A stretch of DNA of 10,897 bases from Candidatus Tectimicrobiota bacterium (GTDB lineage Bacteria; JACPSX01), in assembly GCA_016193065.1 (NCBI GenBank), contig JACPSX010000239.1, positions 1-10,897 of the forward strand. The letters run 5' to 3'. Numbering within the stretch: the first letter of the stretch is position 1; the number at the start of each line of letters is the position of its first letter. Below, one piece after another: positions 2,212 to 10,897 of this stretch. The position numbers and the translations under genes were made by a program. The notes beneath the pieces are model-generated. The model was given only the letters and a program-made list of their open reading frames with translations, made no database searches and had not been told where the DNA came from.

Positions 2212-3010
2212 ATGGAAACAGGGACTCTGAAACTAAAAACGGGCCTGGCGGAAATGCTCAAGGGCGGCGTCATCATGGACGTCACCAACGCGGATCAGGC
2301 CCGCATCGCCGCAGACGCGGGGGCCGTGTCCGTCATGGCTCTGGAGCGAGTGCCTGCGGACATCCGGGCTGAGGGCGGCGTGGCCCGCATGGCCAGCCTG
2401 CGCAAGATCAAGGAGATCATGAAGTGCGTCACGATCCCGGTCATGGCCAAGGTGCGCATCGGCCACTTTGTGGAGGCCCAGATCCTCCAGGCCATGGGCG
2501 TGGACTACATCGACGAGAGCGAGGTGCTCACCCCGGCTGACGAGCATTTCCACGTGGACAAGTTCGCCTTTGCCGTGCCCTTTGTCTGCGGCTGCCGCAA
2601 CCTGGGCGAGGCCCTGCGCCGCATCGGCGAGGGGGCGGCGGCGCCTGACGGCCATGCGCCCCGACGAGCTGATGCGGGAAGCCAAGGAGATGGGGGCGCC
2701 CTACGATCTCGTTTGCCTCGTGGCCCAGACCGGCAAGCTCCCGGTGCCGAACTTCGCGGCGGGCGGCATCGCCACACCCGCCGATGCGGCCCTCATGATG
2801 CAGCTTGGGGCGGAGTCCGTGTTCGTGGGCTCGGGGATCTTCAAGTCCGAGGACCCGCCCGCCCGGGCCCGGGCCATCGTGGAAGCCACGACCCACTACA
2901 ACGATCCCGATATTCTGGCCCGAGTGACCGAGGAACTGGGAGAGGCCATGCCCGGCCTCGACATCGCCACACTGGACCGCGGCGCGCTCCTTCAGCAGCG
3001 CGGCATGTGA
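2212..3010 (+). pseudogene. pdxS: pdxS, PLP synthase synthase subunit, disrupted by internal deletion and frameshift
   Basis: PdxS condenses ribose 5-phosphate, glyceraldehyde 3-phosphate and PdxT-derived ammonia into pyridoxal 5'-phosphate. The first 143 codons (2212-2640) are a textbook PdxS N-terminus: [16 protein letters not shown] with the active-site aspartate D23, and [14 protein letters not shown] with the first Schiff-base lysine K80. The C-terminal half resumes one frame over, from 2642 ([20 protein letters not shown]) to TGA 3008-3010. Between them the usual MIRTKGE-x-GTGN segment and the next helix are missing. The pieces total 265 residues against about 293 in the family, so about 28 codons minus one base (roughly 83 nt) are gone. 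The second catalytic lysine and the phosphate loop are lost. An excellent Shine-Dalgarno (AAGGAGGG, 2200-2207) precedes the ATG. Either the gene is dead or the assembly is wrong at the GCGGCGGCG run, 2634-2642. Confidence 0.9.
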
Positions 3011-4025: not shown

Positions 4026-4727
4026 ATGACATCTACGAGTGACATTCAGGCGCTGTTCGAGGAAGTTCGGAAGCGGTGTGGCGTGATTCAAGCGTGCTTG
4101 CCCAAACGAAATGACCCGGTCTCGATATCTCTTAAAGCAAAGATTCCGTTTAAGGCCCTTGAATACAGGGAGGCCTTGATCTGGAGAGCGAGCGAACTAG
4201 CCAGTACTGCTTGCCGGCTACTGGAGGAGGGCGAGTTAGCGGCCGGAACCTTACTGGTGCGGGGGCTGATGGAGACCAGCGCAGCATTGTGGTTCCTTAA
4301 CCGAAAGATCAAGGATGTTGTGGACGGCCACAGGGTCGGATCCATAGATGAGGATCTAATGCGCCTCTTGATGGGCAGTCGAACGGACCTTACCACCTAC
4401 GAGTCATTCAACGTCCTGACTCTTGTGGACAAGATAGCCCAAGAAATCCCTAGCTTCCGCCGCGAGTACGAGGCGTTGAGTCAAATTGCCCACCCAAACT
4501 GGTGTGGAACGATGATGCTCTATTCCAGACCAAATACAGAGAAGATCTGGACGGATTTCGGAAAGCACGTGCGGGACAATGAGTCGGTGGTAAAAGTGGG
4601 CCTAATTAATTTGAATGCCGGGCTCCAGATATTCGAGTATGCCTATAACCAAATTGTGGATCTGATGCCCAGATTCATAGAAATCTGCGAAAAAGCTCTC
4701 GATGACTCAGTTGAAAGCGCGCGCTAA
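4026..4727 (+). CDS. Hypothetical helical protein (233 aa), upstream neighbour of the TIR gene
   Basis: I do not recognise this protein with confidence. It is predicted soluble and mostly helical, with no signal peptide. Two stretches look conserved in type: a helix ending in LLVRGLMETSAALWFL (77-92) and YEALSQIAHPNWCG (148-161). An Arg-x3-Glu helix followed by a His-Pro-Asn-Trp motif recalls families of unknown function such as DUF5677, but this is from memory and unverified. ATG 4026 is the first ATG in a frame open from 3885; the nearest AGGAG is 17 bases away, so the start is uncertain. It lies 257 bases upstream of the TIR gene on the same strand and shares its lower GC and less biased codon use, so the two may have arrived together. 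Confidence 0.7.
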   Translation: MTSTSDIQALFEEVRKRCGVIQACLPKRNDPVSISLKAKIPFKALEYREALIWRASELASTACRLLEEGELAAGTLLVRGLMETSAALWFLNRKIKDVVDGHRVGSIDEDLMRLLMGSRTDLTTYESFNVLTLVDKIAQEIPSFRREYEALSQIAHPNWCGTMMLYSRPNTEKIWTDFGKHVRDNESVVKVGLINLNAGLQIFEYAYNQIVDLMPRFIEICEKALDDSVESAR

Positions 4728-4984
4728 CTCGCTCGGGTCCTGGCGTGAAGATCGATTCCGCAATAGTAGAGGTGCCGTTTGGTTTAGAATCACGTTTGGG
4801 GGCTCCTCTTCTCCGTAGTGTGGGCAAACACGAGCATACCAGGCGGCATGCTTGCCAAGGGGCCTCAATGAGTATCAGCTTGCTGCAGGTGACGGAGGCC
4901 GAGCAATCGATGGGCTGCAGCGGCTGAGTACCAAGTTAGACAGACACAGCGTTGATGGTGACACTCGAGAGGATCGCAAACGCG

Positions 4985-6487
4985 ATGACTCAGCCGAGAG
5001 TATTCATTAGCTACAGTCACAAGGACAAGCTGGTTGCCAAATACCTCGCCGCCCATCTACAGGAACGCGGAGCGGAGGTATGGGTTGATGAAGGCGAGAT
5101 CTTGGTCGGGGATTCATTGCTTGCCAAAATAGCTCAAGGTGTCCAGCGGGCCAGCTTCGTTATAGCCATTATCTCCCGGAACTCGATCGGTTCTCGGTGG
5201 GTAAGGAAGGAGCTTGCTATCGCGATGCACAAAGAGGTCTCCGGTAGGAGAGTAGTTGTGCTTCCAGTAAGGGTCGATGACTCCGGGCCGCCCAATTTCC
5301 TGAAGGACAAGCTCTACTGCGACCTCTCAGCAGACGCCATCGACTGGAATGCAGAGTTGTCACGCCTCTTCCGGTCGCTTGGGCTCACCTCAGGCGCTCA
5401 TGGAACTCTCGCGGAGAACACACCGCTCCCACTCTCGTTGACAATCCCGGCGGTCTTCAGCCAGCACAGAATCCTAGAGAGTAACTGCTGGGGGTTCGGT
5501 CACTTTGTGGCCGACGACGTCTGGACTGGTGGCATCTATATCCCTGTTCGTCAACGGGCCTTAGGGCGTGTTCTGGCGGAGACACCCGCTCCCCTGAGTC
5601 GAAGCGTCCCCCGCCGCATCAAAGCCCCACCTACCAGCAGGGTTCTGACTCTCTCGGCTGTCTCGGAATACAAGCCAGGCGCAGCCCTTCGGATTAGAGG
5701 ACTGGCTACATGCGACACGTTTGCCCGTCGGAGAGGCTTCTGCGCAGTCTGCTACGGCGGTGATCCAATGACTGGTGCGTTTGTCCGCCGCGCCACTCAG
5801 GTTGGCCGCTCCGCCGCCACCTCTATTTTGACGGCTCTGGAGCGCGCTCAAGACATCTCGGCTGTCACCCGGCTTTTCGAGGCCGGGCCGGCTCCAGGTC
5901 GTATGGTCCTCTCTCCGGCGGACGGTGTGGTTAGACTCGAGCGCACCGCGACCGGCACCCTGCGCATAGCCGTAACTGACGATTCTGGTGAGTGTTTTAA
6001 TGTCGTGACCAAGGATGATCCGACCGTACCCGAAGGCGACCGCGTGTGGCTCGGGCAGGCCTTGACTCAGGGCGACCCCTCACCGCATGACTTGTTGCAG
6101 ATGTTTGGCAATAAGTTCGTTGAACGCCATCTGGTTACAGAACTAGCTGCAGCCTTCATGCGCCAGGGGATCCGAATCCCCGAGCGCGACCTGGAGCTCC
6201 TCGTCGCGGTCATGACTTCCTACGTTAAGGTCGAGGGCGGCAATGAGCAAGACGCGTTGGTCCGACGGCATAAGGGAAAGGCACTTCCGAGGCGTAAGTT
6301 CTTCTCCACAAATAATCGTTTGTTGAGGCTAGGTCGGGAACCAATTCTCGCGAGGCCCCTGGTTCTGGGCGTAAGTGAGATCTTTCACCTGGAGCGTGCA
6401 CTGGTCGCTGACTTAGCACGCAATCAGCGTAGGTGGCGTCTAATCCCTACGAGGTCCCCGGTTGTCAAGGGCAGAAAACTTACGTGA
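4985..6487 (+). CDS. TIR domain fused to an RNA polymerase beta' (RpoC) C-terminal-like region
   Basis: A 500-residue soluble protein. Residues 4-135 are a TIR domain: RVFISYSHKDK, a BB-loop-like DEGEILVGDSL, and SRWVRKE, where W72 and E76 have the W-x3-E spacing of TIR NADases. Residues about 160-488 resemble the C-terminal half of RpoC: QRALGRVLAE (190-199), CDTFARRRGFCAVCYGGD (243-260), VGRSAATSI (273-281, compare VGVIAAQSI), QDISAVTRLFEA (289-300), SPHDLL (366-371), RQGIRIPERDLELLVAVM (393-410) and ARPLVLGVSE (456-465). C168, C243, C253 and C256 match the order of the RpoC zinc site. The trigger loop is cut after SI, and the NADFDGD-bearing half of RpoC is absent, so polymerase catalysis is excluded. 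ATG 4985 is chosen because the TIR starts at once and GAGAGGA lies upstream; TTG 4952 and ATG 4955 are alternatives. Likely role, inferred: an NAD-cleaving defence effector with a polymerase-mimic sensor. Confidence 0.88.
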   Translation: MTQPRVFISYSHKDKLVAKYLAAHLQERGAEVWVDEGEILVGDSLLAKIAQGVQRASFVIAIISRNSIGSRWVRKELAIAMHKEVSGRRVVVLPVRVDDSGPPNFLKDKLYCDLSADAIDWNAELSRLFRSLGLTSGAHGTLAENTPLPLSLTIPAVFSQHRILESNCWGFGHFVADDVWTGGIYIPVRQRALGRVLAETPAPLSRSVPRRIKAPPTSRVLTLSAVSEYKPGAALRIRGLATCDTFARRRGFCAVCYGGDPMTGAFVRRATQVGRSAATSILTALERAQDISAVTRLFEAGPAPGRMVLSPADGVVRLERTATGTLRIAVTDDSGECFNVVTKDDPTVPEGDRVWLGQALTQGDPSPHDLLQMFGNKFVERHLVTELAAAFMRQGIRIPERDLELLVAVMTSYVKVEGGNEQDALVRRHKGKALPRRKFFSTNNRLLRLGREPILARPLVLGVSEIFHLERALVADLARNQRRWRLIPTRSPVVKGRKLT

Positions 6488-6591: not shown

Positions 6592-6774
6592 ATGATTCGA
6601 CGAACATCAGGTTCAAAAGATCCAGATATTCAGGCTTCAGCCAAGGCGCTGCGTCGAGCGGCGCGGCGGGCCAGAGAGCTTGGCATGCAGATGGGCACGC
6701 CCGTCTACGTGGTACAGCGTGGCCAAATCATTGATCTAACCAAGCAAAAGCGCTTGCGTGTCAGAATGAAGTAG
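6592..6774 (+). CDS. Small basic hypothetical protein (60 aa)
   Basis: A strongly basic protein (16 Lys/Arg against 4 Asp/Glu) with an amphipathic helix ALRRAARRARELG followed by TPVYVVQRGQIIDL. Similar small proteins, a basic helix then a short beta hairpin ending in a 'V.. .G.I..L' strand, are often seen near toxin-antitoxin genes; this is recalled, not checked. GGGAGA lies upstream of the ATG at good spacing. It sits 104 bases after the TIR gene on the same strand. It could be an antitoxin-like or accessory protein; the function is unknown. Confidence 0.65.
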   Translation: MIRRTSGSKDPDIQASAKALRRAARRARELGMQMGTPVYVVQRGQIIDLTKQKRLRVRMK

Positions 6775-6941: not shown

Positions 6942-7262
6942 ATGGACGAAGACGACAGGATCATCCCAAGTGGCCCGTTCAAGGGGAAGAAGGTTGAGTT
7001 CGCTCCCACCACGGGGATCGACATGTTTTTGGACATTGCCGAGGATTTCATGAGACGGATCTTTGATTTCGAACCGGGGAATTACCTCATCACGGATGAA
7101 TCGAGTCACTCTGATTTCACAGGTCTGGACGAGATGGATATGTCGGACATCCACAAGAAGATTCGAGAGGTATATGATCTGGATCCTTCTGACGTCCCAT
7201 CCGGAAATCTGCTGGAGATTTTCCTCCGGATTCACCGCAGCAAGTATGGTTCGCCGTCATAG
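6942..7262 (+). CDS. Small acidic hypothetical protein (106 aa)
   Basis: A very acidic soluble protein (23 Asp/Glu against 12 Lys/Arg). Features include IPSGPFKGKKVEF near the start, GNYLITDESSHSDF (46-59) and a C-terminal helix SGNLLEIFLRIHR. It resembles a recurrent but uncharacterised family with a YLITDESS-type motif; I cannot name a domain. ATG 6942 is chosen because AGAGGAAA lies a few bases upstream; the open frame extends only eight codons further. It stands between the basic 60-residue gene and the mazEF pair. No function is claimed. Confidence 0.75.
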   Translation: MDEDDRIIPSGPFKGKKVEFAPTTGIDMFLDIAEDFMRRIFDFEPGNYLITDESSHSDFTGLDEMDMSDIHKKIREVYDLDPSDVPSGNLLEIFLRIHRSKYGSPS

Positions 7263-7452: not shown

Positions 7453-7481
7453 TTGACATGTTGTTGAAGGCCCCTTAATAT
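7453..7481 (+). promoter_or_regulatory. Sigma-70 promoter of the mazEF-type operon
   Basis: A perfect TTGACA (7453-7458), a 17-base spacer and TAATAT (7476-7481, five of six matches to TATAAT). It starts 67 bases upstream of the antitoxin ATG. This is the best promoter in the window. Confidence 0.75.
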
Positions 7482-7499
7482 ACGTATTGAGCACGTATA
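7479..7499. promoter_or_regulatory. Candidate autoregulatory operator of the MazE/MazF pair
   Basis: TATACGT (7479-7485) and ACGTATA (7493-7499) are perfect inverted arms seven bases apart. They overlap the -10 element and the expected transcription start. A ribbon-helix-helix antitoxin bound here would block transcription, the usual autoregulation of toxin-antitoxin operons. The binding is inferred; the symmetry is seen. Confidence 0.6.
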
Positions 7500-7519
7500 C
7501 AAGAGAAGGGACCCGCATA

Positions 7520-7750
7520 ATGCAAAAAAAGCTAACCATCACCGTCAATGAGAAAGTGTATGAGGGCCTGCACAAAGTTGTGGGCCGCCGTCGCATTAGC
7601 CGGTTTATCGAAGAGTTGGTCCGTCCATACGTCCTGAACCGGGAGCTTGAAGCCGCCTATCAGCAGATGGCCAAGGACGAGGCACGCGAAGCAGAGGCTT
7701 TGGAATGGTCAGAGGCCACGGTTCGAGATGTCGGCGATGAAACGCGGTGA
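7520..7750 (+). CDS. MazE-like antitoxin, ribbon-helix-helix type
   Basis: A 76-residue antitoxin. Residues 1-40 fit a ribbon-helix-helix DNA-binding domain: the strand [15 protein letters not shown], then [17 protein letters not shown]. The rest is an acidic, flexible helix ([17 protein letters not shown]) of the kind that wraps and inhibits MazF. ATG 7520 is preceded by GAGAAGG. Its last 14 bases overlap the toxin start, which couples the translation of the two. It probably represses its own promoter through the inverted repeat at 7479-7499. Confidence 0.85.
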
Positions 7751-8078
7751 GGTGTGGTGGGTGAACTTCGAAGCGGCTGTTGGTGGCGAGATTCGCAAGA
7801 AACGACCAGCAGTTATTATCAGCAACGATGCCTCAAACAAATATCTGAATCGTATTCAGGTTATACCACTGACGAGTAATGTTGATCGACTCTATCCAAG
7901 TGAAGCGCCTGTCACGCTGAAAGGCAAGCGGAGCAAAGCTATGGCGGATCAACTCACGACGGTCAGCAAAGCACGATTGATAAACCGAGTGGGGAGGCTG
8001 TCTGAGATAGATATGCAGCGGGTGGAGCGTGCTGTGCGCATGCAACTTGGCCTGTCCGGCCTCATGGAAGAAATCTAA
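7737..8078 (+). CDS. mazF: MazF/PemK-family endoribonuclease toxin
   Basis: A 113-residue toxin that cuts mRNA at short sequence motifs and halts growth when its antitoxin is lost. The family start [11 protein letters not shown] is present, then [11 protein letters not shown] with the conserved R23-P24, QVIPLTSN with T46 (R23 to T46 matches the usual catalytic Arg/Thr spacing) and [15 protein letters not shown]. The C-terminal helix carries [14 protein letters not shown]. The length is normal and the frame intact. ATG 7737 lies inside the antitoxin gene. TTG or ATG codons further upstream in the same frame would add non-family residues. Confidence 0.93.
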
Positions 8079-9721: not shown

Positions 9722-9753
9722 GGGAAGGGGTAGGGGGGGACGGAACAGGGGGG
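9722..9753 (+). promoter_or_regulatory. G-quadruplex-prone tract in the livK leader
   Basis: Runs of 3, 4, 7 and 6 G are separated by AA, TA and eight bases. The first 18 bases alone (9722-9739) can provide four G-triplets with loops of 2, 2 and 1. The tract ends 30 bases before the start codon and 17 bases before the Shine-Dalgarno. Confidence 0.5.
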
Positions 9754-9783
9754 AAACCCGATCAGGCGAAAGGAGGCAGAAAA

Positions 9784-10897
9784 ATGATGAAGAAATGGAT
9801 CGCGTTGCTGAGCCTCATGGTGCTGGCGGTGGTTGCGTCACCCGGCGGAGCCCAAGCGCAGGAGACTGTAAAGTTCGGATTTCTGGCGTCGTTGAGCGGG
9901 CCCTTCACGATCTGGGGGGTGCAGGTGCGGGACGGAATGAAGATGGCCGTGGACGAGTTGAACGAAAGGGGCGGCGTGCTCGGAAAGAAGGTTCAGCTGG
10001 TGGAGCGCGACGACAAAAACAACCCGAATGAGGGGATCACGGCGTTCCGGTACCTGGTCGAGCAGGAACGCGTCAGCGGCAGGGGGAATGATTTCGAGCG
10101 ACGTGGGCCTGGCCGTCTCCCGGGAGGCGGAGTCCCTGAAGGTCCCTCACTTCCTGACCATGTCGGGCTCCCATGAAATCCTCAAGAAGAACAGCCGGTA
10201 CACGTTCCGGACGTGTCTGCCGGCGGCGCCGGAGAACATGGAGGCCGTCGCCGCCCTGATCAAAGACAAGAAATACACCCGGGTCGGCGCCATCATCGCC
10301 GACTATGCCTGGGGGCATTCCCTCCGGGAAGCTCTCGAAAAGCACATCAAGCCCATGGCGGGCGTCAAGCTGCAGATCGAGGTGGCTCCGGTTCCCGAGA
10401 AGGACTTCACTCCCTACCTGAGAAAGCTCCAGGCTTTCGATCCACAGCTCATCGTTGCCACGGGTCACCCCCCGGGAAATCCCACGATCACCCGGCAGGC
10501 GATCGAGCTGGGGATGAAGGCCCAGGTCATCGGATCCTGGTACCCCACGGAGTTCATGGTGCAAAGGGTGGGAGAGCTGATGTTTGGACGCTTCGTGGAT
10601 TATTCCTGCGTCGACCTTGAAAGCCCGGCGTACAGGCAACTGGCGGAAAAGTTCCATGCGATCTACAAGCGCCTGTTCGACAACAACGCCTTCTCCGGCT
10701 ACGTGATGGTCAAGATGGTGGCGGACGCGGCCCAGAAGGCCAAGTCCACCGACCCGAAGGTCGTGGCGGATGCCATCCGGAAGGGAAAGTTCACGCAGCC
10801 GGGCTACGGCTGGCCGCTCTCGTACACGGAGTGGGGGGAGATGAAGGAGGCCAGGCCGATCCTGTACACTTACGAGAAGGGAAACCCCGGGCCGATC
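9784..10897 (+). pseudogene. livK: LivK-type ABC transporter substrate-binding protein, frameshifted, 3' end outside the window
   Basis: A periplasmic binding protein of the branched-chain amino acid/HAAT family that delivers ligand to a LivHMGF-type ABC importer. The frame from ATG 9784 has a clear signal peptide (KKWIALLSLMVLAVV, likely cleavage after AQA at residue 25) and then VKFGFLASLSGPFTIWGVQV and GKKVQLVERDDKNNP. At about 10070-10087 homology moves to the +1 frame (from ATG 10088: ISSDVGLAVSREAESLKVPH), which stays open to the last base with YTRVGAIIADYAWGHS and QAFDPQLIVATGHPPGNP. Removing one G near 10077, or one from the G5 run, restores a continuous AGGMISSD-like reading. AGGAGG (9771-9776) is an ideal ribosome-binding site. 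The break may be a real mutation or a base-call error in a G-rich run. The ligand is uncertain. Confidence 0.88.

Follow-up and report, generated by a model that had tools for sequence, protein, structure and literature searches.

The gene at 4985-6487 of a contig from Candidatus Tectimicrobiota raises the question of whether a bacterial TIR effector can carry a copy of part of the host transcription machinery as its sensor. An earlier note on this DNA had read the product as a TIR domain joined to a non-catalytic mimic of the zinc-site, jaw and C-terminal portion of RpoC, the beta' subunit of RNA polymerase. In what follows, the window is the whole stretch of DNA that was analyzed, 10,897 nucleotides. 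The gene lies on the forward strand as an intact open reading frame of 500 codons plus a stop, giving a TIR-RpoC fusion protein of 500 amino acids. A possible ribosome-binding site, GAGAGGA, stands immediately 5′ of the ATG at 4985, and a TTG at 4952 is an alternative start. The GC content at the three codon positions (0.630/0.482/0.638) is coding-like, and the third-position value (GC3, 0.64 for the gene) is the same in the TIR part (0.636) as in the RpoC part (0.639).

The N-terminal portion (residues 6-128; 5000-5368, + strand) is a TIR domain, which matches PF13676 (TIR_2) with an E-value of 1.9e-29 and 103.1 bits against a gathering cut-off of 28. W72 and E76, the two residues singled out in the earlier note, form a W-x3-E motif that is nearly invariant in an alignment including 35 related TIR sequences; E76 is the putative catalytic glutamate of TIR NADases. 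In bacteria, TIR domains that retain the catalytic glutamate act as NADases, and the TIR domain of the fusion is predicted to share this activity. Related TIR domains of the same subfamily carry unlike C-terminal regions, as expected for an effector combined with a swappable sensor. Between the TIR domain and the RpoC-like part lies a linker (residues 129-162; 5369-5470, + strand), in which a domain search recognised nothing and alignment to RpoC found no counterpart of the bridge helix that precedes this point in beta'. The same genome encodes a second TIR protein of 286 residues (L037; 4239-5099 on contig C18 of genome G000; GC3 0.50), which is without an RpoC-like part.

Downstream of the linker, the protein follows the linear order of RpoC. 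This had been claimed for about 330 residues; the similarity is convincing for residues 163-466, and residues 467-500 form an RpoC-unlike tail. A profile search, which had been suggested as a check, returned the NCBIfam model TIGR02386 over residues 235-465 with an E-value of 4.5e-21. The match reached 74.4 bits and missed the equivalog cut-off of 963.5, and we therefore regard the fusion as homologous to RpoC and not as an equivalog. Similarly, a search of the PDB with the fusion found RpoC chains with an E-value of 3.2e-22, and 60 of the 60 chains listed were RNA polymerase large subunits; the Pfam model Rpb1_5 matched below threshold only (E=4.9e-5). The match to some genomic RpoCs spans residue 163 or 167 to 467, and the jaw section alone (residues 290-385) finds RpoC in a phmmer search (E=1.6e-10). 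Identity of the RpoC-like part to RpoCs is about 25-34%, and the figure of roughly one third given earlier agrees with the 28-34% seen in genomic RpoC alignments. The gapless stretch from 350 to 415 likewise holds in alignment to most RpoCs. Judged from sequence, then, residues 163-466 are RpoC homology and not a chance resemblance.

To see what had been kept and what lost, we aligned the RpoC-like part to 13 RpoCs, the host's own among them. The fusion enters beta' directly after the bridge helix and runs through the zinc site to the AAxSI motif. This post-bridge and zinc-binding region (residues 163-281; 5471-5827, + strand) retains all four zinc cysteines (C168, C243, C253 and C256) and, before the trigger loop, 17 of 23 RpoC-invariant residues. 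After AAxSI, the fusion has LTALERAQ in place of the trigger loop (GEPGTQLTMRTFH) of RpoC, and an LFEA motif follows before the jaw. Residues 282-292 (5828-5860, + strand) are thus a short substitute at the position of the trigger loop and of SI3, a large insertion that many RpoC lineages, including that of this host, carry at this site and that is absent from the fusion. The jaw-like domain (residues 293-365, corresponding to about 1140-1215 of E. coli; 5861-6079, + strand) keeps 7 of 10 invariant residues. The post-jaw helices and the C-terminal segment (residues 366-466; 6080-6382, + strand), recognised by the PDB match and the RpoC alignment, extend to GVSEI, the equivalent of the GITKA motif; the helices keep 8 of 18. 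Soon after it the fusion stops, and the RpoC C-terminal region beyond GITKA is lost; a forced alignment of the tail (residues 467-500; 6383-6484, + strand) recovered 3 of 18 RpoC-invariant residues. Among the invariants, 12 of 23 polar residues were lost versus 9 of 37 apolar ones (Fisher p=0.05, a small and alignment-dependent sample), which is as expected if contacts to the remaining polymerase are not needed while the fold is. With bridge helix, trigger loop and SI3 absent, a detail that goes beyond the earlier note, the fusion cannot be a polymerase subunit. The upstream parts of RpoC, including the catalytic NADFDGD loop, have no match within the window. By its sequence, the protein is homologous to beta' but does not have the features that define a polymerase subunit.

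A predicted structure was also compared with known folds. Since mixed alignments of TIR and RpoC sequences were misaligned, the RpoC-like part (residues 141-500) was modelled by itself from a shallow alignment of five sequences. The mean pLDDT of the model was 49, rising to 82-86 over the jaw (approximately residues 310-360). The Foldseek check proposed earlier was carried out with this model, and its best 50 matches in the PDB were all RNA polymerase chains (top E=3.4e-13, probability 1.00); VIA-align superposed it on beta' chains with Z-scores of 10-12 over 174-240 residues at an rmsd of 6-10 Å. As the remainder of the model is of low confidence, the fold match agrees with the sequence and adds little beyond the jaw. 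The RpoC-derived part would be expected to fold as a free module. Together, profile, sequence and fold comparisons confirm the non-catalytic beta' mimic.

Could the gene nevertheless be an artefact? It is known from one copy in one metagenome-assembled genome, and two neighbours on the same contig look frameshifted. In pdxS (2212-3010), the reading frame differs between the part for the N-terminal half and that for the C-terminal half, the break falling near 2620-2640, where a conserved stretch is also missing; the gene appears to be a pseudogene or an assembly error. Similarly, an ABC-type solute-binding protein gene (Peripla_BP_6; 9733-10897) is split over two frames that overlap at about 10028-10171. 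These two genes suggest that the contig carries indel errors. We do not think that the fusion is one of them, because it is a single open frame, has equal GC3 in its two halves and contains a continuous RpoC part. Furthermore, no RpoC-like pieces were found in the other frames of the window, so the missing RpoC parts are not a frameshift artefact; in particular, a frameshift hiding the trigger loop or the C-terminus is ruled out. A fragment or misassembly of the host's own rpoC is also ruled out. In the host genome, which is 86% complete and the sole member of its phylum in our comparison set, contig C263 carries rpoB together with the greater part of rpoC, and contig C112 carries the last part of rpoC ahead of ribosomal-protein genes, fusA and tuf. 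This canonical rpoC has both SI3 and the trigger loop, and at the level of identity to RpoCs given above the fusion is not a copy.

Base composition sets the fusion apart from the host polymerase genes, with a GC3 of 0.64 versus 0.81 for rpoC and 0.82 for rpoB. The region from 3.6 to 8.4 kb has a GC content of 52-61%, compared with 61-68% for the majority of genes upstream. This low-GC island and the GC3 gap suggest that the fusion is of foreign origin. The island also contains a gene for a 233-residue DUF5677-like protein (4026-4727; E=2e-4, below the curated cut-off), which ends 257 bases upstream of the fusion start, two small genes to which no function has been assigned (6592-6774 and 6942-7262), and, beyond these, a MazEF-like toxin-antitoxin pair (7487-8078; PemK_toxin E=1e-27) with a sigma-70-like site at 7453-7481. 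Tree reconstruction gives the RpoC-like part a terminal branch of 4.26 substitutions per site, 13 times the median of 0.33, as expected once the constraints on a polymerase are lifted; because of this long branch, the tree does not place the origin of the RpoC part.

We searched for further members of the same architecture. The host genome gave no further TIR-RpoC fusion, and neither did some 1,060 distinct genomes from sets of 98 and then 386 across bacterial families and from phylum samples of 195, 396, 95, 5, 2 and 1; all matches were TIR-only or RpoC-only, and since the larger searches scored the best few candidates per genome, relatives may exist. A tblastn search of plasmid and phage collections found none, and there were none among the matches listed in scans of genome and viral contigs. 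Several candidates were rejected on inspection. The best TIR matches whose similarity appeared to continue beyond the domain (L045/L062 and L061) have a different C-terminal region; short-frame RpoC matches elsewhere sit at contig ends or beside a run of N; and in Granulicella (L082), the RpoC match that lies close to a TIR gene is that genome's own rpoC, at a contig end and on the opposite strand. Searches of PADLOC, NCBIfam, Pfam and the literature revealed no described system with this architecture, an absence that applies to those sources. The architecture is real and unusual and so far a singleton, and the protein would be a TIR effector whose sensor is of a new type. As it is a singleton, its own neighbourhood was the sole basis for judging whether it clusters with defence genes, and no partner from a defence operon was seen there. 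Thus, of the proposal of an undescribed defence system with an RpoC-derived sensor, the architecture and the lack of a described match stood, while neither a homologue nor a defence-operon partner came to light. On these data it is plausible that the protein acts in defence and senses through its RpoC copy.

We propose that the fusion is a single-protein immune receptor and that its RpoC-like part is an integrated decoy, meant for phage proteins with affinity for the jaw and zinc region of beta'; we put the probability of this reading at roughly 40-45%. In this model, the RpoC-derived part would fold into the beta' zinc/jaw surface and have no polymerase activity. A phage protein that binds or modifies this region of the host polymerase, and so shuts off or redirects transcription, would also bind the copy. 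Once a ligand is bound, the attached TIR domains would shift to a different oligomeric state and would consume NAD+ or produce a TIR signal, bringing the infected cell to a halt in an abortive response. The class of ligand, the TIR catalysis and the defence role are what we infer here. Many phage proteins bind or modify the RNA polymerase of the host. In E. coli, an isolated jaw fragment (residues 1153-1213) is sufficient for binding of the phage T7 protein Gp2 (PMC3778932), so a copy of the jaw can work as bait. Together with the NADase activity of bacterial TIR domains and the known indirect sensing of transcription shut-off (PMC12409349), these points lead us to prefer the decoy. The fusion itself argues for it by its secure RpoC homology, with the catalytic elements gone and the four zinc cysteines and most fold-type invariants kept. 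It is further favoured by the TIR subfamily with its W72/E76 pair and variable C-terminal regions, by the long branch beside a canonical rpoB-rpoC on other contigs, and by the low-GC island with its MazEF-like pair. Gp2 itself is not supported as the specific ligand. In a jaw alignment extended by hand, the Gp2-essential residues E1158 and E1188 of E. coli correspond to P311 and F338 of the fusion, and as they are not conserved, the predicted trigger would be another factor. Against the decoy stand the single copy in one metagenome-assembled genome, the lack of a defence-operon partner, and the strong divergence, by which the surface may no longer resemble that of the host polymerase.

Alternatively, the RpoC-like part may dock the TIR domain on polymerase subunits or jaw-binding factors, so that it fires when the complex changes upon stalling or shut-off. 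Phage attack on transcription is a known class of trigger for bacterial immunity, with shut-off sensed indirectly (PMC12409349), and the large contiguous portion of beta' that is kept would, in the polymerase, touch other subunits and downstream DNA. However, the preferential loss of polar invariants and the loss of the region beyond GITKA indicate that the docking contacts have probably not been preserved, and we consider such a guard unlikely. A chance joining of a TIR gene to an rpoC fragment of foreign origin, functionless or drifting, would fit the very long branch and the singleton status in the genomes, collections and matches listed. This explanation is quite unlikely in our view, given an intact 500-codon frame in which the catalytic parts were lost cleanly and in frame, and in which the four zinc cysteines and E76 were kept despite great divergence. 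It is more doubtful still that the jaw/zinc part acts as a DNA sensor, which dense phage DNA would cluster to activate the TIR domain: the isolated E. coli jaw does bind double-stranded DNA by NMR, through a surface that is partly shared with the site for Gp2 (PMC3778932), and the jaw is the best-modelled part of the fusion, but this binding is non-specific and would not discriminate self from non-self. Finally, that the RpoC-like part brings the TIR domain to nascent transcripts to remove nicotinamide from NAD-capped RNA, a reaction that bacterial TIR proteins can perform on NAD-RNA through the catalytic glutamate (PMC10937652), is very improbable, because RNA binding shows no sign and the docking on polymerase that it requires has weak evidence.

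If the integrated decoy is correct, it would provide direct evidence for the use of such decoys as bait for pathogen effectors in bacteria, as in plants. Known sensors of bacterial TIR effectors are of nucleotide-signal or repeat type. Direct sensing of a phage take-over of transcription would become testable with one gene, and the finding would point to further decoys still hidden, for instance essential host proteins of which a truncated copy is joined to an effector.

Among known systems, the fusion shares an N-terminal TIR_2 domain with the W/E motif with Thoeris ThsB, TIR-SAVED, TIR-STING, the RT-TIR retron XII and TIR-NLR proteins, and several PADLOC models of TIR systems match its TIR part. 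It differs from all of these in that its C-terminal part is RpoC-derived and their sensor domains were not found. Specifically, ThsB models match the TIR part only, and the neighbours examined on the 10.9-kb contig include no Thoeris partner (ThsA with SIR2 or another effector). The SAVED-TIR model likewise matches only residues 1-86 within the TIR part; there is no CD-NTase among the window proteins examined, and neither a SAVED nor a STING domain was found. On the parts that could be checked, the protein is not a component of Thoeris or CBASS as judged by these models. With RpoC (TIGR02386) it shares homology over residues 163-466, the zinc cysteines and the jaw, but all of beta' through the end of the bridge helix is missing, as are the trigger loop and SI3, and the fusion ends after GITKA. 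T7 Gp2 offers a phage protein that binds the same region of beta', even as an isolated jaw (PMC3778932), although the two residues essential to it are not conserved here. The proposed logic has a parallel in plant NLRs that carry integrated decoys, such as RRS1, in which a receptor bears a copy of a host protein targeted by pathogens. The likeness is one of analogy and not of homology: the fusion is bacterial and has neither NB-ARC nor LRR, and its proposed decoy would be copied from RNA polymerase.
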